Of a DNA stretch of 64,000 nucleotides, positions 19,505-64,000 are shown piece by piece (the stretch's first letter is position 1; every line of letters starts with the position of its first letter). The notes below the pieces were generated by a model. The model was not told the DNA's origin. It searched no databases and saw only the letters and a list, made by a program, of their open reading frames with translations. The stretch lies in assembly GCA_023475235.1 (NCBI GenBank), contig JAMCWG010000116.1, positions 29,025 through 93,024 on the forward strand, read 5' to 3'. The stretch comes from Chloroflexota bacterium (GTDB taxonomy: Bacteria > Chloroflexota > UBA6077 > FW602-bin22 > JAMCWG01). Both the position numbers and the translations under genes were made by a program.

Positions 19505-22108
19505 CTACCAGCGCACGCGGAGCAGGGTGCTGTCCCGGCCGAAGAAGAGGCCGAGCAGCCAGTCGGTGAACACCCGGATCCGGTTGTACCTGCCCATCAT
19601 AACGGCAGAGTACGCGACCATACGTACCAGACGGGTGAGGAAGCCGTGGGTCCTGAAGCCGTAGATCTCGGCTACGGCGGACCGTGGGCCCAGGGCAATG
19701 ATCTGCCCCATATGCCGGTATCGGTACGGTTGCTTGGGCCGGCCCTCCAGCTCGGCGACGATGTTGGCGGCGACGACTTTGGGCTGGCGAACGGCTATGT
19801 GCGCCGTGGGTGGGAGGGGTTGCCCCATCCGCTCATCGTCGAAATGGGCGTTGTCGCCCAGTGCGTACACGCCGGGATAGCTGGGCACTTCAAGATACTC
19901 ATTCACTATCACACGATGGATGGCGTCTTTTTCCACCGGCAGCGCGGCTACGACCGGGCTGGCAACGATGCCGGGCGCCCAGACGACGGTATGCGTCGAA
20001 ATGACGCGCCCGCAGTTGAGCTCCACACAGTTCGGCCGCACCCTGGTGACCTGCGTGCCGGTCAGCACCTCGACGCCTTGCTTCTCGAGGACGCGCCGAG
20101 CGATGGAGCTGAGCTCGGGGTCGATCTCCGGCAGGATACGCTCGTCGCTCTGGGTGAGGATGACGCGCACGCTCTCCGGGCTGATCTTCGTGTATTCCTT
20201 CAACAGCGAGCCATATATAAAGTCCCGCAGCTCGGCCACGAGCTGGACGCCGATCGTGCCGCCGCCCACTACCACAAAAGTCACCAGCGGGGCCGGATCT
20301 CCTTCCATAGCTGAGGCAGCCTCGAACATCCGGATAACGTGGTTTCGCAGCACTATGCCATCGCGCAGCGTCTTGAGGGTGAAGACCCTGCTATCGGGCC
20401 CCGGCAGCGCCCGGCGGTCGGTCACGCTTCCCAGCGCCAGCACGAGGACGTCGTACTGCATATCCCCGCGGCTGGTGTGGACCGTCCGGCTTGCCAGATC
20501 GACGGACAGCACCTCTGCTTGGACGAACGAGAAGAGCCGCTTCCCGCGCAGGCGGCGAATGGGGAGTGCGATATGCCGTGTCTCGATGCCGCCGGTGGCC
20601 ACTTCGTGCAGCAAAGGCGTGAAGAGGAAGAAATTCTCGTCGCTGACGAGGGAAATCGAGATATCCGGGCGCCTGCCCAGGGCTCGCTCCAGGTGAAGCG
20701 TGGTGTACACCCCGGCGAAGCCGCCGCCCAGCACAAGGACCCGCTTCTCGTGGGGCGCATCCAGGTCGCTCGCCGGGCCGCCGGCCCTCACCTTCGGCGG
20801 CATGAAGACGGCCTGCAGCATCTCGCTCCACATGCTGGGCCAGAGGGTGCGCTGGAGTATGGAGCGATAACTGTACGCGCCGGTGAACATCCCCCAGGTT
20901 ATCTGGTCCAGGCAGCGCTGGGCGTAGGGCTTGTTCTGCTCAGCAGAGAGCATACGCGCCCGAATGTCGAAGAAGTGGCGCGATTTGCTGGTGTAGTGGT
21001 GCATAGCGAACAGCATACGGCCGTACCGGTTGTCGTCCGACAGCTCCTGAAACGTCGGCTGATAGTGGCGTCGGAAGCTGTCCTCGGCGACGCCGTGCTC
21101 CACTGCGGTGAGCGCGGCCTGCCGTGCCGTCTGGAAGGCCGTGCCGATGCCGTCTTTGTACAGGCGGCTGACCGCGGCATCGCCTACGGCCACGAACCGC
21201 TCCCCGAAGGGATGGCTGGCGGGGCCCAGCGGGACCAGCGGCACGCAGCCGCAGCTCCGCTTATGTCCTGCTGGCAGCACGTCCCGCACTATCGGGTGGG
21301 CGAGGAACTCCTGGACCGTCATCGGTGCGGGCCCGCGGCTCAGAAGCGAGACGTTGATGTACTCCCCCTTGGGGATCAGCGTGCCGAAGACCAGTCCGGT
21401 GTTCGGCAGAAGGAAGACGTGCACTTTGTTTTCCAGCGCGCTCGCCACTCCCTCGGCCCCAAGCTGGAGCTCGTCCTGGGCCATTCGCTGGGTGGGCGGG
21501 GGCTTGTACGGCGGCGGCATGTGCTGCAGCAGCCGCGAGTTCACCCCGCACGCCAGCACCACCAGATCGAACTCGCGCTCTGCGCCGCGGAAGACCACAC
21601 GCGGGCGCTCACCGGGTGCGGCAAATGCGATCGAGCTGACGGTCCCCTGGGCTAGCTCCACTCCCTGCTCGACGGCCTTCTGCAGCAGGAACCCGTCGAA
21701 GCTGACACCTCGTTCGAAGAGCGCTCCGCGAGGGCCGCTGCCGCGATACACGCTGAGAATGGTCGCCCGAGGATCAGGCTGCGGCGTCTCGATGGTGCCG
21801 AAAGGCGTGTGCAGACAGTAGGCAGAGATGCGGCTCAGCACTACTGAATCGGGAAGCTCCAGGCCCAGGCAGGACAGGTTGCGTACCAGCGACGAGGAAA
21901 GGATACCGGCGCACATATTGCAGCCGGCTTTGCCGGACTCAAGAAATGATTTCTCTTCGTACAGGGTGATGCGCAGGTCAAGGTTTCTGCGTCGGGCGTG
22001 GTTGAGCAAGTGGAGGGCGAAGAAGCTTCCTGCGGGTCCACCACCGACAATCGCCACCTGGCTGCCAGTTACCAGCCTCGCCGAGCCAGCATTCATAGCT
22101 CTCAGCAT
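19505..22108 (-). CDS. Fusion: geranylgeranyl-reductase-family FAD oxidoreductase + type II NADH dehydrogenase
   Basis: 867 aa with two complete dinucleotide-binding modules: VAIVGGGPAGSFFALHLL...KAGCNMCAGILSS, then VLVLGGGFAGVYTTLHLERAL...NFFLFTPLLHEVATGGIE...ALGDNAHF...DWLLGLFFGRD. Confidence 0.92.
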   Translation of the reverse strand: MLRAMNAGSARLVTGSQVAIVGGGPAGSFFALHLLNHARRRNLDLRITLYEEKSFLESGKAGCNMCAGILSSSLVRNLSCLGLELPDSVVLSRISAYCLHTPFGTIETPQPDPRATILSVYRGSGPRGALFERGVSFDGFLLQKAVEQGVELAQGTVSSIAFAAPGERPRVVFRGAEREFDLVVLACGVNSRLLQHMPPPYKPPPTQRMAQDELQLGAEGVASALENKVHVFLLPNTGLVFGTLIPKGEYINVSLLSRGPAPMTVQEFLAHPIVRDVLPAGHKRSCGCVPLVPLGPASHPFGERFVAVGDAAVSRLYKDGIGTAFQTARQAALTAVEHGVAEDSFRRHYQPTFQELSDDNRYGRMLFAMHHYTSKSRHFFDIRARMLSAEQNKPYAQRCLDQITWGMFTGAYSYRSILQRTLWPSMWSEMLQAVFMPPKVRAGGPASDLDAPHEKRVLVLGGGFAGVYTTLHLERALGRRPDISISLVSDENFFLFTPLLHEVATGGIETRHIALPIRRLRGKRLFSFVQAEVLSVDLASRTVHTSRGDMQYDVLVLALGSVTDRRALPGPDSRVFTLKTLRDGIVLRNHVIRMFEAASAMEGDPAPLVTFVVVGGGTIGVQLVAELRDFIYGSLLKEYTKISPESVRVILTQSDERILPEIDPELSSIARRVLEKQGVEVLTGTQVTRVRPNCVELNCGRVISTHTVVWAPGIVASPVVAALPVEKDAIHRVIVNEYLEVPSYPGVYALGDNAHFDDERMGQPLPPTAHIAVRQPKVVAANIVAELEGRPKQPYRYRHMGQIIALGPRSAVAEIYGFRTHGFLTRLVRMVAYSAVMMGRYNRIRVFTDWLLGLFFGRDSTLLRVRW

Positions 22109-39628: not shown

Positions 39629-41374
39629 ATGCGATCCAGTGTTTACCTGAAGGTTACATTGTTTGCCGTAGTAGCTCTGCTGGGGGCGTGTGCCCCGTCG
39701 GCAGCTACCCCCGCGCCGGCCAAGCCCGCCGCTCCGGCTGCGGCCACGGCTGCGCCCCAGGCGCCGGCCGCCACGGCTGCGTCTCAGACGCCAGCCGCCA
39801 CGGCCGCGCCTCAGGCGCCAGCCGCGGCTACACCTCGCCAAGGCGAGTCGCCTGTGGCGACGGTTGCCAAGGTTAAGCGGGGCGGCATCCTTGTCTATTC
39901 CCGCACCAAGAACCTGGAGAGCCTGGATAATGTCATCCAGCAGACTATGGACGCGCCAGGTGCAACGATGCTCTACGAGCATCTACTGACCTACGATCTG
40001 GTAGACCCCAAGACCGCGGCCCACGAGCTAAAGCCCCAACTGGCCGAGTCCTGGGACGTGATTGACCCCAAGAAAATAGTCTTCAAGCTCCGCAAGGGCA
40101 TCAAGTTCTCCGACGGCAGCGACTTCAATGCCGAGGTAGTCAAGTGGAACATCGACCGGACCAGGACCGAGCCCAAGTCGGCCGGCAAGCACCTGGTAGA
40201 CACGATCGAGAGCGTGGACGTGGTCGATCCGTACACCGTGCGGGTCAACCTGAAGAACCCTTCGGCCACGGCCGTGCTGAAGCTCAGCAACGGCGTCTCC
40301 GGGACGGGTACCTTCGCCGCGTCGATGGCCTCGAAGGCGGCCTTCGATAAGGGCGGCGCCGATTACCTGCACTCCAACCCTATCGGTACCGGCCCGATGA
40401 TCCTCGATCAGTGGCTGCCGGGCGATAGGCTCACCCTCAAGAAGCGCGACGGCTACTGGCAGAACGGCGTCGACGGAAAGCCTTTGCCCTACCTGGACGG
40501 GTTCGTCGACCGGTACATCACCGACTCGGCGGTGGCGTTCGTTGAGTTGCGCTCCGGAACGGTCCAGTTCGCTTCCAGCATCCGGCTGGCCGACGTCCCG
40601 GCGGTGAAATCCAACCCGGACCTGGTCTACGACGACTGGTGGTGGGCAGCTTCGGTCCGGTTCGTATACGGCTTCAGCCAGCAGGATGGCCCGTTCAAGG
40701 ACAACCTCAAGCTGCGCCAGGCCGCCCACTACGCCATCGACAAAGCACAGATGGCCAAGACGATGGGCTTCGGCCTCGCCCGCCCCGACGATTATGTCTA
40801 CTGGAACCAGGCGATACTGGGATACGATCCTTCCGTAATCAAGTACAGTTACGATGCCAACAAGGCCAAGCAACTACTCGCCGAGGCAGGATACCCTAAT
40901 GGCATCGACATCACCCTCACCACAATCTCTCGCGACCCGGACCGCAAGATCGCCGAGATCGCCAAGTTTATGTGGGATGCCGTCGGACTTCGAACCAAGA
41001 TCGACCTGATGGAGCGCACTGCGGCGCTCGCAATATGGAAGAGCCAGAAGTTCGACGTCGGCTTCGCCGGCTACACGATGCTGCCCGACCCTGATGTATT
41101 CGCTCCGAAGAACCTGTCGTGCGACGGGGGTAACAACCTGACCGCCAACTGCAACAAAGAATTCGATGCCTGCATTAACGAGGCCGGCGCCATCGTGGGC
41201 AACGACCAGAAGCGCGGCGAGATCTACAAGCGCTGCATGAAGATCGTCCAGGAAGACGCCTTCAAGCAGCAAGGGTACTCGGAGCCTTACTTCTATGTAT
41301 ACAACAAGAGCGTGAAGGGTATCGTGGCCCATTGGGCCGACCCCGACGTACGGTGGGCCTGGCTGGATAAGTAG
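39629..41374 (+). CDS. ABC transporter substrate-binding lipoprotein, family 5 (peptide/nickel type)
   Basis: Lipobox-like LLGACAPS; low-complexity Ala/Pro linker; LAESWDVIDPKKIVFKLRKGIKFSDGSDFNAEVVKWNIDRT...NPIGTGPMILDQWLPGDRLTLKKRDGYW. Confidence 0.93.
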   Translation: MRSSVYLKVTLFAVVALLGACAPSAATPAPAKPAAPAAATAAPQAPAATAASQTPAATAAPQAPAAATPRQGESPVATVAKVKRGGILVYSRTKNLESLDNVIQQTMDAPGATMLYEHLLTYDLVDPKTAAHELKPQLAESWDVIDPKKIVFKLRKGIKFSDGSDFNAEVVKWNIDRTRTEPKSAGKHLVDTIESVDVVDPYTVRVNLKNPSATAVLKLSNGVSGTGTFAASMASKAAFDKGGADYLHSNPIGTGPMILDQWLPGDRLTLKKRDGYWQNGVDGKPLPYLDGFVDRYITDSAVAFVELRSGTVQFASSIRLADVPAVKSNPDLVYDDWWWAASVRFVYGFSQQDGPFKDNLKLRQAAHYAIDKAQMAKTMGFGLARPDDYVYWNQAILGYDPSVIKYSYDANKAKQLLAEAGYPNGIDITLTTISRDPDRKIAEIAKFMWDAVGLRTKIDLMERTAALAIWKSQKFDVGFAGYTMLPDPDVFAPKNLSCDGGNNLTANCNKEFDACINEAGAIVGNDQKRGEIYKRCMKIVQEDAFKQQGYSEPYFYVYNKSVKGIVAHWADPDVRWAWLDK

Positions 41375-56260: not shown

Positions 56261-57196
56261 CTAGATCAGCTTGGCCCGCTGGAAGTACACGGTGTAAGCG
56301 GAAACGGCCATCCGGATGCCATCCACCGCTATCTCGGCCCGTCGCTCCGGCGCGAGGCGCGATCCTCGCGGGCTCTGGGCGATCCGGCCCTCCAGATACG
56401 CGGCCAGCCGCCGGCCTACCTCGACCTTGTCGGCGCCCTCCCTGAGCGCACCCAGCACCACCTCGGTGTAGCCGCGGGTGGTCGCCTCGGCCTCTGCCAG
56501 GGCCCGCTCCACCTCTGGCCACACGCCGTTATGCGAACTGACGATGGCACTGGGACGCAGGCCGGCAATCATATGGTAGGTCTCTATAGCCACATTGGGA
56601 TCGAAGGACGGCGGTGCAGCCGACGGCACGTACACGTCGCCCTCGGCATTGTACCCGCCCGCCGCCTCGCCGGCAAACAGCATCCCCGTCAGGCTATCGT
56701 GCAGCACGATGTGGTGCGGCGCGTGACCCGGCGACGCGTGCACGCGCAGCTCTCTCCCCTGCCCCAGGGAGATGGCCTCGCCACCTCTCACTACCCACAC
56801 TCGCTCCCGCGGGACCGGCAGCATCGGGCCGTAAATCTCCTCGAACTGGTCCCCGAAGACCTGGCGGGTGCTTTCCACGAGGCGCGTCGGATCGATCATA
56901 TGGCGGGCGCCGGCCTCCGGCAGGACGATGGTGGGCCTGGCGAGCTGCTGCGCCAGCAGGCCCACACCACCGGCGTGGTCGATGTGGATGTGGGTGGGCA
57001 CGATGTAGTCCAGGCCGGCAGGGTCGTACCCGGCCTCGCGAATGCCGGCCGTGACTTCGGCGTTGCGGGACGCCGGCGCGCTCTCCACCAGCGCCATCTT
57101 TCCCTCGCCCACCACCAGGAAGGCATGCGAGAATGGCACGCGCGGGTGCGGGGTCGTCGGTATATGGAATATCCCTTTCGCAAGTTCCTTGACCAT
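56261..57196 (-). CDS. MBL-fold metallo-hydrolase
   Basis: MVKELAKGIFHIPTTPHPRVPFSHAFLVVGEGKMALVESAPAS; THIHIDHAGGVGLLAQQL; HASPGHAPHHIVLHD; ATG at 57196. Confidence 0.92.
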   Translation of the reverse strand: MVKELAKGIFHIPTTPHPRVPFSHAFLVVGEGKMALVESAPASRNAEVTAGIREAGYDPAGLDYIVPTHIHIDHAGGVGLLAQQLARPTIVLPEAGARHMIDPTRLVESTRQVFGDQFEEIYGPMLPVPRERVWVVRGGEAISLGQGRELRVHASPGHAPHHIVLHDSLTGMLFAGEAAGGYNAEGDVYVPSAAPPSFDPNVAIETYHMIAGLRPSAIVSSHNGVWPEVERALAEAEATTRGYTEVVLGALREGADKVEVGRRLAAYLEGRIAQSPRGSRLAPERRAEIAVDGIRMAVSAYTVYFQRAKLI

Positions 57197-57312
57197 AATC
57201 TGGCTCACCTCATCTGCTGGTTGGCGGTTATTGGCGTCCCCCTGAACGCTCCCATATTCGGACGTGGGGACCGGGCGACCCGGCGTCGGGGCCAGGCTGC
57301 CAGGCCCCACCT

Positions 57313-58686
57313 TTACGCGAATTGCAGGCCGACACCCGATAGCATCTGCTTCGCCTGCAGGTACACCTCGTGGTACGCCGGCATAGGCCGATGGTGCGCC
57401 CAGTCGTAGACCTCGCGCACATCGCGGGCCGGCTCCGGCTTGCGGCCTTCGATCAGCTCCGCCAGCTTACGGTAGAAGACCTCGCCGTTCGACCGCGTGT
57501 GCACGCTGTGCATCACGGCGTTGCAGACCTCCCAGGTCCACTCCGCCTCCAGCGGCGTCTGGGCCTGGTTCACCTGCGCGCGCTGGTGGCGGACCTTGTC
57601 CACATTAGCGCCGTTCAGCGGCCCTCTGGCGAAGTTGTAGGCCAGCTCCAGAAGCTGGGTGAGCGTCCCCGGCCCCGATTGAGTGTACCCGCCGTTGAAG
57701 TACGGCAGCGGGCAGTAGCGGTTTAGCACCTGACAGGCCAGCGACGACGCCCAGTAGGTGTTCGGTTGCGGCTGCAGCCGCTCGGCCATGCGGCCGGTGG
57801 CGCGGCCGATGGAGGCCGGACCGAACCGGTCTCGATAGCAGATCCAGCCGCCCACCAACTGGCATACGGCCTCGATGACCGCCCCCTCGACGCCGCCACA
57901 GAAGCCGCCGGCGGTGGCGCTGGCCACCCCGCGGGCGAAGGCGCCGTAATCGTTGTAGACGATGGCCGCCGTCAGCATGTCCTGCTCCATCTTTACATCC
58001 GGCAGCATCGTCAGCAGGATGCCGTCGGTCCGCCGCAGGCCATAGTCGGGGTCCATCGGCGCCACCAGCACGGAGGCCCGGGTGCTGATCGGGTACAGGG
58101 CCACCCCTATCCCGGGCCGGCCGGCCTGGCGAATGCCCTGCCGCAGCCAGGCGAGCTGGCGCCGGGAGGCATAAGCCTCCAGGGGCATACCGTACACCTC
58201 GCGGCCGTCCACGGCCCGGAAGTTGAAGCCTTCGATCAGGTCGGCGCTCGGTATCTGGGCCATGTTCTTGACGCAGATGGAGCCTAGCTCTTCTGAGAAC
58301 GGGGCGTGATGTCCGGGCACATGGCTCAGCCCCTCCGTTTCCTCGATCCGCCTGCTCTTTATCACCCGGACGTCGCGGCCCGTCCCCACGGCGATCTCCG
58401 ACGGAGCCTCGCGAATGGCCTGGAGCACCTCGTCCCGCGTCAATTGGATGACGCGGCTGGTAGTCAGGCAGTAGATGCCCTGCTCGCTCAAGAAGTCGAC
58501 GGCCGCGCGGTATGCGGCCTCCACCTGCGCATCATCATGGTTGAAGAAGCTGCCGTCGTCCGGGCATTTTATGCCGTACTTCCCGGTCAGCTCTTCCATC
58601 TTGCGGAACAGGCTCAGGTTCCACGTCTTCTCCTCGACCTTCGGCCCCTTCTGGCTCCGCTCGGCAATGTCCAGCAATGAGATCAT
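57313..58686 (-). CDS. MtmB-like (monomethylamine methyltransferase superfamily) protein without pyrrolysine, paralogue 1
   Basis: 457 aa; EQGIYCLTTSRVIQLTRDEVLQAI, AVGTGRDVRV, AGRPGIGV, MDPDYGLRRTDGILLTMLPDVKMEQDMLTAAIVYNDYG, GGFCGGVEGAVIEAV match the MtmB pattern; TAA stop, no in-frame TAG. Confidence 0.85.
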   Translation of the reverse strand: MISLLDIAERSQKGPKVEEKTWNLSLFRKMEELTGKYGIKCPDDGSFFNHDDAQVEAAYRAAVDFLSEQGIYCLTTSRVIQLTRDEVLQAIREAPSEIAVGTGRDVRVIKSRRIEETEGLSHVPGHHAPFSEELGSICVKNMAQIPSADLIEGFNFRAVDGREVYGMPLEAYASRRQLAWLRQGIRQAGRPGIGVALYPISTRASVLVAPMDPDYGLRRTDGILLTMLPDVKMEQDMLTAAIVYNDYGAFARGVASATAGGFCGGVEGAVIEAVCQLVGGWICYRDRFGPASIGRATGRMAERLQPQPNTYWASSLACQVLNRYCPLPYFNGGYTQSGPGTLTQLLELAYNFARGPLNGANVDKVRHQRAQVNQAQTPLEAEWTWEVCNAVMHSVHTRSNGEVFYRKLAELIEGRKPEPARDVREVYDWAHHRPMPAYHEVYLQAKQMLSGVGLQFA

Positions 58687-58761
58687 GGTTCTCTCCTAAG
58701 AGCTATGTGATCTGTAACATTGATGTAGTGCGATGTTTCGCCGCCCCACCGTTGCGCTTGG

Positions 58762-60042
58762 TTATGTCAATCCTGCGGCCACCAGGGCGATCACCCTGGC
58801 CGCCTCCAGCAGGTTACTGATGCGACAATTTTCGTCGGGGCCGTGCCCGCGGCTCTCCCGGTGCTGGGCAACCCCGTAGGTGGCGTGCGCCATCCCGGTG
58901 ACCTTGACGGCGTGGCCGACATCGGTGGAGCCGCTGGAGGCGAACAGCGGGCAGGGCTGGCCGGTCGCTATCTCCACTGCCCGCTGCACCTTTCGTACCC
59001 ACGGATGCTCAGGATCGCCGTAGAATGGAATATAGATGGTGTTCACGGCCAGCTCGCAGTCCAGCGCCGGGTCCGACCGCCTGGCGCGGGCCACGGCGTC
59101 CTCGATCTCCAGCGCGGCAGTCTCCATCTCCTCGCCAGGGATCACCCGGCGGTCGCCCTCCAGCACGAACGCGGCCGGTATGATGTTGTGCTTGGTCCCT
59201 CCGTGAGCGATGGTGACGTTGAGGTTGGGAGCAAGCACTTCGATCCCGCTGTCCTTCGCCGTCAGCGGGCTGGCGGGAATGGAGCTCCGTCGCTTTCGTA
59301 CTTCTGCCTTTAGGGCCACAAGCTCCCGCAGGACCTCGTAGCCGTGCTCGATGGCGTTCACCCCTTCGTCGGCGCGGGCCGAGTGGATGCTCTTCCCCCT
59401 GACCATTACGGTCCAGGTAAGCTGGCCGTTGTTGCCCAGGCTCACGCCCTCGTGCGAGCCGTCCAGGGCCATGAAGTACTGGCAATGGCTGAGCCGGCCT
59501 ATGTCGGCAAGATACATCAGCCCGCTGTAGGGGCCGCCTTCTTCGTCTGGCGTGAGGGCGATGGTCACGTTATATGCCGGGCTGATGCCGAGCTCGCGCA
59601 GCACCCGGAAAGCGGTGATGATCGCGGCCACCGGCCCCTTGTCGTCGGCGGAGCCGCGCCCCCAGATGCGCCCATCACGCACTATGCCCTCGTACGCCGG
59701 CACGCTCCACTCCGATTCCACCACCGGCACCACATCGGTGTGGGCGTACCAGAGCGCGTTCTCCTTCGCCCCCACATCCATTGTCGCTAGGACGTTCGCA
59801 CGCGGCCCTTCCTGCAGCGGGTTCACGCCCTTGCAGCGCTCCTGAAAGACGTCGTTGGGCATGTCGATGCGCTCCACCTGGAAGCCCATCGCCGGAAAGA
59901 AAGGCATCAGGAACTCCGCCATCCGGTCGTAGTTGAGGCCCGGCGGGTTCGGCGTGGGAATGCGAATCATCTCCTGGGTGAGACGGACAAGCTCATCCTG
60001 CCGCTCATCGATGGCCCGAGCGATGCGGTCGACGTCGTTCAC
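58762..60042 (-). CDS. M20 family metallopeptidase (ArgE/DapE/ACY1-like)
   Basis: ALWYAHTDVVPVVESEWSVPAYEGIVRDGRIWGRGSADDKGPVAAIITAFRVL; LTPDEEGGPYSG; NVTIAHGGTKHNIIPAAFVLEGDRRVIPGE; SSGSTDVGHAV. Confidence 0.94.
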   Translation of the reverse strand: MNDVDRIARAIDERQDELVRLTQEMIRIPTPNPPGLNYDRMAEFLMPFFPAMGFQVERIDMPNDVFQERCKGVNPLQEGPRANVLATMDVGAKENALWYAHTDVVPVVESEWSVPAYEGIVRDGRIWGRGSADDKGPVAAIITAFRVLRELGISPAYNVTIALTPDEEGGPYSGLMYLADIGRLSHCQYFMALDGSHEGVSLGNNGQLTWTVMVRGKSIHSARADEGVNAIEHGYEVLRELVALKAEVRKRRSSIPASPLTAKDSGIEVLAPNLNVTIAHGGTKHNIIPAAFVLEGDRRVIPGEEMETAALEIEDAVARARRSDPALDCELAVNTIYIPFYGDPEHPWVRKVQRAVEIATGQPCPLFASSGSTDVGHAVKVTGMAHATYGVAQHRESRGHGPDENCRISNLLEAARVIALVAAGLT

Positions 60043-60095
60043 AGCAGTCCTCCTTGCCGCTTTCGCATTTCATCCCGTGACTTTCCAGGCACGAT

Positions 60096-61472
60096 CTAGG
60101 CAAACGGCAGCCCGCAGGCCGCCACATGCTCTTTGACCCGCAGGTATTTCTCGTTGTAGGCAGGCGCGGGCCGGTGGTGCACCCAATCGTAGCACTCCCG
60201 CACGTCCTGCGCCGGCTCCGGCGGGCGACCCTCCAGCAGCCTGGCCACCCGGCGCGCTGCCTCGTCGGCATCAGCCCGGGTGAATCGGCCGCGCATCACC
60301 GCCGTAGCCACCTCCCAGTCCCATTCGGCCTCGAAGGGGGTCTGCGCTGCATCCACCTGCGCCCGCGTGTGGCGCGGGAACATCAAATTGGTGCCGTTGA
60401 CGGGCACCTTGATGCTCTGCAGCGCCCGCTCCAGGAGCACGCCTTCCGTCCCCGGCCCGGAGAAGCTGTAGCCGCCGTTGTAGAGCACCATGTTGGTGTT
60501 ACGGGCCAGGGCCTGGGCCACCACCGACATCGCCCACCATAGCTCGGGCGCTGGTGTAAGGGTTGTCGCCTTGGCCCGAGAGACGTGGCCCAGGCCAGAG
60601 CCGTGCAACTGGTCCCGGTATACCAGCCACTCGGCGATGCCGCGCACGATAGCCTCTATGATCGCGCCTTCGACATCGCCGCAGAAGCCGCCGGCCATCG
60701 CCGTGCCGCCGCCGCCGATACGGAAGGCGCCGTAATCGTTGTAGACGATGGCCGCTGTCAGCATGTCCTGCTCCATCTTCACGTCGGGCAGCACCGAGAG
60801 GAGGAGACCGTCCGTGCGGCGCAGACCGTAGTCGGGGTCCATCGGCGCCACCAGGACAGAGGCCCGGGTGGTGATGGGGTAGAAGGCGATGCCCAGGCCG
60901 GGCCGGCCGGCCTTGCGCACGCCTTCCCGCAGCCAGGCCACCTGCCGCCGCGCCGCGTACGACTCAATCGGCATACCGTAGATCTCGCGGCCATCGATCA
61001 CCTTGAAGTTGAAGCCCTCCACATAGTCGCAGCTCGCCATCATCGCGAAGTTCTTCACTGCGAGAGGCGCCATTTGCTCGCTGAAAGGGGCGTGATGGCC
61101 GGGGACGTGGTTCAGCGCCTCGTGCTCCTCGATGCGTCGCTGCTTGAACATCCGGACATCGCGGCCTTGGCCCATCAGCACCTCCGACGGCATCTCCCTG
61201 ATGCCCTGCAGCACCTCCTCCCGGTCGAACTTCACGACCCGATTCGTGGTGATGCAGTACACCCCCTGCTCCGCCAGGAAGTCCACGGAGGCGTGGAAGG
61301 CACGGTCGGCCAGCGCGTCATCCAAATTGAAGAACGAGCCGTCCCTGGGGCAGGTCAGCTCATACTTGCGGATGAGCTCGCGCATCTTGGCGAAGAGGCC
61401 CAGGTCCCAGACCTTCTCCTCCATCTTCGGCCCCTTCTGGGTCCGCTCGGCGATATCCAGCAGCGAAATCAT
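60096..61472 (-). CDS. MtmB-like protein without pyrrolysine, paralogue 2 (more divergent)
   Basis: 458 aa; EQGVYCITTNRVVKFDREEVLQGI, LMGQGRDVRM, AGRPGLGIAFYPITTRASVLVAPMDPDYGLRRTDGLLLSVLPDVKMEQDMLTAAIVYNDYGAF; terminates at TAG. Confidence 0.85.
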   Translation of the reverse strand: MISLLDIAERTQKGPKMEEKVWDLGLFAKMRELIRKYELTCPRDGSFFNLDDALADRAFHASVDFLAEQGVYCITTNRVVKFDREEVLQGIREMPSEVLMGQGRDVRMFKQRRIEEHEALNHVPGHHAPFSEQMAPLAVKNFAMMASCDYVEGFNFKVIDGREIYGMPIESYAARRQVAWLREGVRKAGRPGLGIAFYPITTRASVLVAPMDPDYGLRRTDGLLLSVLPDVKMEQDMLTAAIVYNDYGAFRIGGGGTAMAGGFCGDVEGAIIEAIVRGIAEWLVYRDQLHGSGLGHVSRAKATTLTPAPELWWAMSVVAQALARNTNMVLYNGGYSFSGPGTEGVLLERALQSIKVPVNGTNLMFPRHTRAQVDAAQTPFEAEWDWEVATAVMRGRFTRADADEAARRVARLLEGRPPEPAQDVRECYDWVHHRPAPAYNEKYLRVKEHVAACGLPFA

Positions 61473-61570
61473 ACTAAACCTCCGAATTGTCTCCCTCTAG
61501 ACTAACATAGTGAGGCGTTCAGTTGAGCCGGCCCGTAGGGCCGGGTAACCCGGCCTCTACCGTGCGACGG

Positions 61571-62944
61571 CTATTCGAAGTCCAGCCCGATGCCGGACAG
61601 CATTTGCTTCGCCTGGAGATAGACCTCGTGATACGCCGGGCTCGGCCGGTGATGGGCCCAGTCGTAGACCTCGCGCACATCGCGAGCGGGCTCCGGCTTG
61701 CGGCCCTCGATCAGCTTGCCCAGCCGCTGGTAGAAGGCATCGCCATTAGACCGCGTGCCCACGCTGCGCATCACGGCATTGCAGACCTCCCACGTCCACT
61801 CCGCCTCCAGCGGCGTCTGAGCGTGGTCGACCTGGGCCCGCTGATGGCGAACGTGCATAACGCTGGCCCCGTTCAGCGGTCCCCTGGCGAAGTTGTAGGC
61901 CAGCTCCAGAAGCTGAGTGAGCGTCCCCGGGCCGGATTCCGTGTATGCACCGTTGTACAGCGGCAGCGGACAATATCGGTTGAGGGTCTGGCACAGCAGC
62001 GACGTTCCCCACGCGACATCGGGATGCGGCGACAGGTATTCGACCGAGCGACCGGACACGCGGCTGACGCTGGCCGGGCCGTAGCGGTTGCGGTAGCAGA
62101 TCCATCCGCCGACCAGCCGGCACACGCCCTCGACCACCGCGCCCTCGATGCTGCCGCAGAAGCCGCCCGCCATTCCGCTGGCCGTGCCCCGCGTGAACGA
62201 GCCGTAGTCGGTGTATACGATGGCCGCTGTCAGCATATCCTGCTCCACCTTCACGTCGGGCAGGGTCGACAGCAGGATGCCATCGGTCCGTCGCAGGCCG
62301 TAGTCGGGGTCCATCGGCGCCACCAGGACGGAGGCGCGGGTGCTGATGGGGTAGAAGGCAACGGCCATCCCCGGCCGGCCCGCCTTCCGGATGCCCTCGC
62401 GCACCCAGGCCAGTTGCCGCCGGGCGGCGTACGCCTCCATCGGCATGCCGTATATCTCTCGCCCGTCTACCACGCGAAAGTTGAAGCCTTCGATCAGGTC
62501 GGCGCTCGGTATCTGGGCCATATTCTTGACGCACAACGGCGCCATCTGTTCTGAGAAGGGGGCGTGGTGGGCCGGCACGTGGTTGAGGGCTTCCCGCTCC
62601 TCGATGTTGCGCCGCCGCATCACACGCACGTCCCGGCCCGTCCCGACAGCAAGCTCCGCCGGTGCCTCCCGCATAGCCTGGAGCACCTCCTCCCGCGTCA
62701 GTTGGATGACGCGGTTGGTGGTCAGGCAGTAGACGCCCTGCTCGGTGAGGAAATCGAGGGCCGCGTGGTAAGCGGCCTCGACCTGCCCGTCATCCTGGTT
62801 GAAGAAGCTGCCGTCGTTCGGGCATTTTATGCCATACTTCCTGGCCAGCTCCTCCATCTTGCGAAAGAGCCCCAGGTTCCAGGTCTTCTCCTCGACCTTC
62901 GGCCCCTTCTGCGACCGCTCCGCAACATCCAGCAGCGAGATCAT
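61571..62944 (-). CDS. MtmB-like protein without pyrrolysine, paralogue 3 (closest to paralogue 1)
   Basis: 457 aa; MISLLDVAERSQKGPKVEEKTWNLGLFRKMEELARKYGIKCPNDGSFF..., VAPMDPDYGLRRTDGILLSTLPDVKVEQDMLTAAIVYTDYGSF; terminates at TAG. Confidence 0.85.
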   Translation of the reverse strand: MISLLDVAERSQKGPKVEEKTWNLGLFRKMEELARKYGIKCPNDGSFFNQDDGQVEAAYHAALDFLTEQGVYCLTTNRVIQLTREEVLQAMREAPAELAVGTGRDVRVMRRRNIEEREALNHVPAHHAPFSEQMAPLCVKNMAQIPSADLIEGFNFRVVDGREIYGMPMEAYAARRQLAWVREGIRKAGRPGMAVAFYPISTRASVLVAPMDPDYGLRRTDGILLSTLPDVKVEQDMLTAAIVYTDYGSFTRGTASGMAGGFCGSIEGAVVEGVCRLVGGWICYRNRYGPASVSRVSGRSVEYLSPHPDVAWGTSLLCQTLNRYCPLPLYNGAYTESGPGTLTQLLELAYNFARGPLNGASVMHVRHQRAQVDHAQTPLEAEWTWEVCNAVMRSVGTRSNGDAFYQRLGKLIEGRKPEPARDVREVYDWAHHRPSPAYHEVYLQAKQMLSGIGLDFE

Positions 62945-63294: not shown

Positions 63295-63324
63295 TTGACA
63301 GTTCTAGAGGCGTGCCCGTATAAT
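63295..63324 (+). promoter_or_regulatory. Sigma-70-type promoter upstream of the tRNA genes
   Basis: TTGACA (63295-63300), 18-nt spacer, TATAAT (63319-63324), 24 nt before tRNA-Glu. Confidence 0.85.
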
Positions 63325-63347: not shown

Positions 63348-63424
63348 GGCGCATTCGTCTAGCGGCCTAGGACACCTCCCTCTCAAGGAGGAGACCATCG
63401 GTTCGAATCCGATATGCGCTACCA
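63348..63424 (+). tRNA. tRNA-Glu (anticodon CTC)
   Basis: Cloverleaf: ggcgcat/atgcgct acceptor, cctcc-CTCTCAA-ggagg anticodon arm, GGTTCGAATCC T arm, encoded CCA. Confidence 0.95.
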
Positions 63425-63470
63425 GGGTAACGATGGGCCACCTGCACACAACGTCATCTCCGTTTGTCCA

Positions 63471-63544
63471 GCCCCTGTAGCTCAGGTGGATAGAGCAGCG
63501 GTTTCCTAAACCGCGTGTCGGCGGTTCGAGTCCGTCCAGGGGTA
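63471..63544 (+). tRNA. tRNA-Arg (anticodon CCT)
   Basis: Cloverleaf: gcccctg/caggggt acceptor, gcggt-TTCCTAA-accgc anticodon arm, GGTTCGAGTCC T arm; no encoded CCA. Confidence 0.95.
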
Positions 63545-63575
63545 CCCGAAAAGCATTGAAAAGTATAGAAAGGGC

Positions 63576-63620
63576 ATAGAAAGAGGGCCGGACTCGGCGA
63601 GAATCCGGCCCTCTTTCTAT
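63576..63620. terminator. Strong hairpin downstream of tRNA-Arg
   Basis: atagaaagagggccgga-ctcggcgagaa-tccggccctctttctat, 17-bp perfect stem with A- and T-rich flanking arms. Confidence 0.85.
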
Positions 63621-63632
63621 AGTATGCTCATC

Positions 63633-63881
63633 TCATGCCCTCAAATCACCAGGTTTGCTGACCATTTTCAGAAAGCGATGGATCGCCTTGTAATTCGCCT
63701 GGGGATTTCCTTTCATCGCCTGAGCGATATAAGACAGCCTCAGAGAGCCTGCATCCAGGATGGCCTTGAGAATAGCAGCCCCTTTGCGCACTTCATCATT
63801 GCTACAAAAGACTTGATCAGCGAATTTTCGAATGTCCGAGAGTTTGAGAACCTTTGCCACGGTATACCCCTTGCTAAGCAC
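63633..63881 (-). pseudogene. N-terminal fragment of an IS4-like transposase
   Basis: GYTVAKVLKLSDIRKFADQVFCSNDEVRKGAAILKAILDAGSLRLSYIAQAMKGNPQANYKAIHRFLKMVSKPGDLRA matches the N-terminal piece of the 4780-4890 copy and stops where that copy's body begins. Confidence 0.8.
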
Positions 63882-64000
63882 GTGAGCATAAGTATGGCGT
63901 TGGAATCACGAATTGATCGGCAGCATTACAGGATGGGGCTGCAAGTCCCTGCTGAAGAAGCGCCGTGCGCCAGCAACCAGTTCACCAATGTTGCCAGCGA

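Follow-up and report, generated by a model that had tools for sequence, protein, structure and literature searches.

Pyrrolysine-free MtmB-family genes in an operon-like block of a Chloroflexota genome: putative corrinoid-dependent methyltransferases

We asked what three neighbouring genes, related to the pyrrolysine (Pyl) containing monomethylamine methyltransferase MtmB of Methanosarcina barkeri, might do in a Chloroflexota bacterium when they carry no Pyl. The genes, called W1, W2 and W3 in the following, lie in a stretch of 64,000 nucleotides (the window):

57313-58686, minus strand: W1, pyrrolysine-free MtmB-family methyltransferase, 457 amino acids (aa); PF05369, 136.7 bits; phmmer to 1L2Q, E = 6e-28
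60096-61472, minus strand: W2, pyrrolysine-free MtmB-family methyltransferase, 458 aa; PF05369, 175.7 bits; Ala at Pyl202
61571-62944, minus strand: W3, pyrrolysine-free MtmB-family methyltransferase, 457 aa, first gene of its block; PF05369, 142.0 bits; Ala at Pyl202

Judging from sequence comparisons and gene neighbourhoods, we find it reasonably probable that the three proteins are corrinoid-dependent methyltransferases which use a shared small corrinoid protein (MtxC) in trans and whose methyl groups reach tetrahydrofolate (THF) and the Wood-Ljungdahl pathway.

Family membership and absence of pyrrolysine

All three open reading frames (ORFs) are intact on the minus strand, with the positions and lengths that a first-pass annotation of this DNA had given. 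W1 and W3 share 80% of their residues, while W2 is 61-62% identical to either of them. W1 and W3 differ at 62 first, 46 second and 164 third codon positions, and the ratio of nonsynonymous to synonymous substitution rates (dN/dS) ranges within the trio from 0.19 (W1/W3) to 0.35 (W1/W2). Since both measures indicate purifying selection, we regard the trio as real genes; a pseudogene or chance reading is ruled out by dN/dS together with the profile scores.

The Pfam profile of MtmB (PF05369, curated cut-off 25 bits) is matched over its full length by each protein (profile positions 2-450 of 450, E from 1e-39 to 2e-51). When W1 was searched with phmmer against the sequences of solved structures, M. 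barkeri MtmB entries were the only ones matched, with residues 5-456 aligned to 1L2Q. The profile search and the W1 alignment thus place the trio inside the MtmB family, as had been proposed. The separate MttB family (PF06253) is ruled out: the trio matches PF05369 only, and PF06253 has no match anywhere in the genome. Two of the colinear motifs on which the proposal had been based have exceptions in the trio: GTGRD reads GQGRD in W2, and AGRPGxG reads AGRPGMA in W3. We also compared an AlphaFold model, built from 7 sequences, with known structures. Foldseek returned MtmB structures alone (E = 1.6e-11, TM-score 0.5, root-mean-square deviation 14.5); because the model is poor, with a mean predicted local distance difference test score (pLDDT) of 55, the structural match adds little to the profile evidence.

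That the enzymes are pyrrolysine-free was borne out: none of the three genes contains an in-frame UAG, and the Pyl202 column holds Ala in W1, W2 and W3. This is a property of the whole genome (2.85 Mb in 196 contigs, 74.8% complete). We found 15 copies of PF05369 in it, the trio being three of them; all are pyrrolysine-free, with Ala or Val in the Pyl202 column of an alignment with M. barkeri MtmB, and no match to PylS was seen in this incomplete assembly. As a side observation, M. barkeri positions 320 and 273 are occupied by Gln and Gly in 27 of the 28 aligned sequences, and by Ala and Glu in the Pyl enzyme. Gln320 and Gly273 could possibly be a signature of pyrrolysine-free MtmBs, in a comparison that had one Pyl sequence.

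Relatives within and outside the genome

In a phylogenetic tree, 12 of the 15 copies fall into one group, here group B (100/100 support), together with relatives from Chloroflexi MAG-38, Dehalococcoidia CSMAG_200 and a Spirochaetales MAG. The remaining copies, on contigs C14, C171 and C22, cluster with a Dehalococcoidia protein. Within group B, the trio and the copy on contig C131 make up a sub-clade (100/100) that is found in this genome alone.

Outside this genome, group B seems to be scarce. A scan of 85,462 species genomes with degenerate patterns gave 4 loci in 3 genomes, which is a lower bound as the patterns were strict; an earlier scan with two narrow peptide patterns made from the trio alone had given no relative, and it was the wider alignment that led to the four loci. 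PF05369 occurs in 6 of the 399 genomes sampled from the phylum and in 2 of the 29 from the class, and the next-highest copy number seen is 6.

Contamination of the bin is an unlikely source of the 15 copies for loci of more than 10 kb, where GC content is 0.62-0.65 and the tetranucleotide correlation with the window is at least 0.98. For the short contigs C22, C180 and C184 (3-4 kb) the correlation is 0.935-0.961, and their membership in the genome is less certain.

A fourth MtmB gene lies on the contig of the window, about 1.8 kb to the left of the window start (C112:25846-27180, or L012:9908-11287). It belongs to group B and adjoins a gene that by eye resembles gamma-glutamyltransferase.

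Corrinoid proteins of the relatives and of this genome

Elsewhere in the phylum, most MtmB genes adjoin genes for MtxC corrinoid proteins, and some also adjoin RamA-like genes or genes resembling the methyl-THF:corrinoid methyltransferase (MeTr). The same arrangement is found in group B itself. One locus (L040) has the order MtmB-MtxC-MtmB, and another (L041) has MtxC-MtmB followed by what is by eye likely a sodium:solute symporter. In the genome under study, contig C84 carries a group B MtmB together with MtxC and a RamA/RACo-like protein (domains Fer2, Raco_middle and RACo_C_ter). Against TIGR02370 ("methyltransferase cognate corrinoid protein"), this MtxC reaches 204 bits, slightly below the cut-off of 215. 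Because relatives from the same clade thus stand in operons with corrinoid proteins, once also with a RamA/RACo-like activase, bacterial demethylation is the best-supported reading of the trio. The first-pass annotation had left the choice between a demethylation and a lyase system; the former is favoured by these operons, whereas the latter found no support.

Apart from C84, only contig C55 carries an MtxC gene, so that 15 MtmBs face two MtxCs. The C55 gene row (L050:8089-11848) consists of an MtaA-like gene, a gene resembling an activation domain, MtxC and MeTr. Its MtaA/CmuA-family protein is above the NCBIfam cut-off and carries the HxC...C motif, MeTr is above the cut-off of NF005719, and the second protein resembles the activation domain of methionine synthase by eye, with no Pfam match. 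Contig C183 encodes acetyl-CoA synthase and an AcsE-like protein and, by eye, also a subunit of the corrinoid iron-sulphur protein and CooC. With the genes of C55 and C183, candidate enzymes exist for the whole way from methyl-corrinoid over methyl-THF to acetyl-CoA.

Since no corrinoid gene adjoins the trio, we think that it probably uses a shared corrinoid protein in trans. On the other hand, the same corrinoid chemistry could be served by a dedicated corrinoid protein encoded in the quarter of the genome that the assembly lacks, in which case the sharing would be illusory. The completeness of 74.8% speaks for this explanation, as does the habit of MtmB genes in other genomes of adjoining their own MtxC. 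However, the operon of the trio is intact, so its MtxC gene would need to lie elsewhere, unlinked, and the copies on C131, C11, C16, C43 and C112 lie well inside their contigs and also have no adjacent MtxC. As several copies share this property, the missing neighbour is not merely an effect of contig ends, and we regard a dedicated partner elsewhere as unlikely.

Several points weigh against use of a shared MtxC with transfer to THF. MtxC, MeTr, RamA-like and UroD-like genes were not found in the window by phmmer; absences from the genome at large are weak evidence, because the assembly is only about 75% complete. The structural model is, as said above, poor. Finally, the C55 cluster could be a methyl-transfer hub, or it could be a split methionine synthase, since, besides the two small MtxCs, no ORF of the MetH type carrying both B12 domains was seen in the genome.

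Some further observations concern this machinery. The contig with the C84 genes also encodes a DUF2229 protein related to CoA enzyme activases (L011:1478-2470, minus strand). The URO-D domain (MtaA/HemE superfamily) has 15 matches in the genome, two of which adjoin MtmB copies (C86 and C43). Neither of the two has the full HxC...C motif: the C86 protein has HxC but lacks a third Cys around where one would be expected, and the C43 protein has no HxC.

Residues around the pyrrolysine position

Next, we looked at the residues Glu229, Glu259 and Gln333 of M. barkeri MtmB, which we take to be those around Pyl in the crystal structure. In the alignment they are replaced in the trio by Leu, by Gly, Thr or Val, and by Gly, respectively. 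Together with the lack of a linked corrinoid gene, these replacements would fit a trio that has abandoned corrinoid chemistry and now employs the inherited TIM barrel as a lyase, as a hydrolase or for binding. Yet the same residues are replaced likewise in the C84 copy, which is a member of a corrinoid operon. Moreover, none of the columns that are invariant in 13 other aligned sequences is altered in the trio, which argues against a loss of the family function. Group B has invariant residues of its own, absent from group A and from M. barkeri (His127, Glu152, Asn155, Trp180, Tyr198, Thr202, Asp246, Arg366 and others), and these too are common to the trio and C84. We therefore consider a departure from corrinoid chemistry quite unlikely. 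Among the group B copies of the genome, only the trio and C131 retain Tyr335 of M. barkeri; the 8 others lack it.

The gene block around the trio

The trio belongs to a block that is transcribed in the order W3, W2, M20, W1, MBL, IclR, with a Shine-Dalgarno-like sequence, that is, a putative ribosome-binding site (RBS), at the starts of all 6 genes. The other features of the block are:

58762-60042, minus strand: M20 family deacylase/peptidase (ArgE/DapE-like), 426 aa, GTG start; PF01546, 102 bits; TIGR01910, 211.8 bits, slightly below the cut-off of 217.6
56261-57196, minus strand: metallo-beta-lactamase-fold hydrolase (MBL), 311 aa from an ATG chosen by its RBS-like sequence (the longest ORF starts at 57310); PF00753, 75.9 bits
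55255-56085, minus strand: IclR-family transcriptional regulator, 276 aa; PF01614 and PF09339
56145-56172, minus strand: sigma-70-like promoter upstream of IclR (TTGACG, 16, TATAAT), 11 of 12 consensus positions, a consensus match only

An operon-like block had been claimed and is what we see, but the three MtmB genes are not contiguous in it, as the M20 gene sits between W1 and W2. Given its promoter-like site, IclR may form a transcription unit of its own.

Elsewhere in the window, the regions 63348-63546 and 63576-64000 contain tRNA-Glu and tRNA-Arg, with a perfect sigma-70 promoter-like site in front (63295-63324), and then, at the contig end, a 20-bp inverted repeat and transposase-like fragments, judged by eye. 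An 867-aa ORF at 19505-22108 on the minus strand has an N-terminal part like an FAD-dependent oxidoreductase and a C-terminal NDH2-like part, and is either an unusual fusion or a single long reading frame across two genes.

Proposed mechanism and substrate

The sequences themselves show the family, the lack of Pyl, the structure of the block, purifying selection and the existence of candidates for the downstream steps; that the trio uses corrinoid and shares an MtxC in trans, the direction of methyl flow and the class of substrate are what we infer. The TIM barrel of each protein would take up a methylated substrate, probably of the amine type, whose methyl group would then be passed to the Co(I) of MtxC. 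Having no MtxC of its own, the trio would use that of C84 or C55. The methyl-THF:corrinoid methyltransferase of C55 would then carry the methyl group onward to THF and thus into the Wood-Ljungdahl pathway, and the RamA/RACo-like protein of C84 would reactivate the corrinoid. Hydrolysis by M20 and MBL would shorten or open up the substrate, and the regulator of the whole block would be IclR.

The clues to the substrate are the ArgE/DapE-like deacylase and the MBL hydrolase of the block. With low confidence, our guess is an N-methylated or quaternary compound that is amino-acid-like or peptide-like. A bolder and rather speculative extension would be that some 15 pyrrolysine-free MtmB demethylases of differing specificity share one or two corrinoid proteins, and that the window operon couples M20/MBL hydrolysis to the demethylation of substrates that form a new class, N-methylated and of acyl-amino-acid or peptide-like nature.

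Binding proteins of the SBP_bac_5 family (peptide/nickel/glutathione-type ABC, i.e. ATP-binding cassette, systems) are encoded directly upstream of the MtmB copies on C171, C131 and C43. As a substrate clue this is suggestive only: about 0.4 neighbours of this kind would arise by chance, assuming about 1 gene per kb. The clue is weakened because the genome has 80 SBP_bac_5 matches, unusually many for 2.85 Mb; one of them is in the window (39629-41374, plus strand). A separate, possible clue for group A is given by two loci (L054 and L056, in genomes G011 and G191 of different families), where a group A-type MtxC-MtmB pair lies near genes that by eye encode nucleoside/BMP-type ABC transporters.

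Comparison with known systems

M. barkeri MtmB (PDB 1L2Q/1NTH) has a similar size, shares the Pfam family over its full length and is about 24% identical to the trio. It differs in that the trio has Ala for Pyl, replaced Pyl-contact residues and no adjacent corrinoid gene of its own.

Among pyrrolysine-free MtmBs, MtqB of Methanococcoides methylutens Q3c demethylates tetramethylammonium and choline, which the study called the first function of a pyrrolysine-free MtmB (PMC13044021, 2026). The earlier view of these proteins as a little-characterised group therefore largely holds but now has this exception: in the same study's tree of 1,061 MtmB-family sequences, the function of the remaining pyrrolysine-free members is unknown. 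MtqB has a corrinoid protein as its partner, which we presume for the trio as well; it comes from an archaeal methanogen, and its cognate MtqC gene is adjacent to mtqB. The trio could itself demethylate choline or tetramethylammonium in the manner of MtqB, which is the only pyrrolysine-free MtmB with a demonstrated function and whose clade is reported to include bacteria (PMC13044021). We find this improbable, as such a system would have no need of M20 and MBL neighbours.

Another comparable protein is Ga0180325_111810 of 'Ca. Formimonas warabiya' DCMF (PMC9768040), likewise a bacterial pyrrolysine-free MtmB with unknown substrate in a Wood-Ljungdahl anaerobe. It differs in that it is the protein most strongly induced by dichloromethane in that strain. 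The pyrrolysine-free members of the MttB superfamily (MtgB, MtpB, MtcB, MtyB) would be alike in principle, performing corrinoid-dependent demethylation without Pyl, but belong to a separate family, PF06253.

With more than a thousand family sequences collected and a single demonstrated function (PMC13044021), group B, with 12 copies in one genome and few corrinoid partners, offers a natural test set for this fold without pyrrolysine. It could be used to ask which residues take the place of Pyl, how broad the range of substrates is and whether a single corrinoid protein is enough for many methyltransferases. It may also point to a route, not recognised so far, along which anaerobic bacteria, probably Chloroflexota, make use of methylated organic matter. 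In the literature on MtmB or monomethylamine methyltransferase in Chloroflexota, Chloroflexi or SAR202 we found no such system, judging from titles and abstracts. Pyrrolysine-free MtmBs are already known as a kind; new, as far as we searched, are a divergent, expanded bacterial clade, a ratio of 15 MtmBs to 2 MtxCs and a triplicate operon linked to hydrolases.

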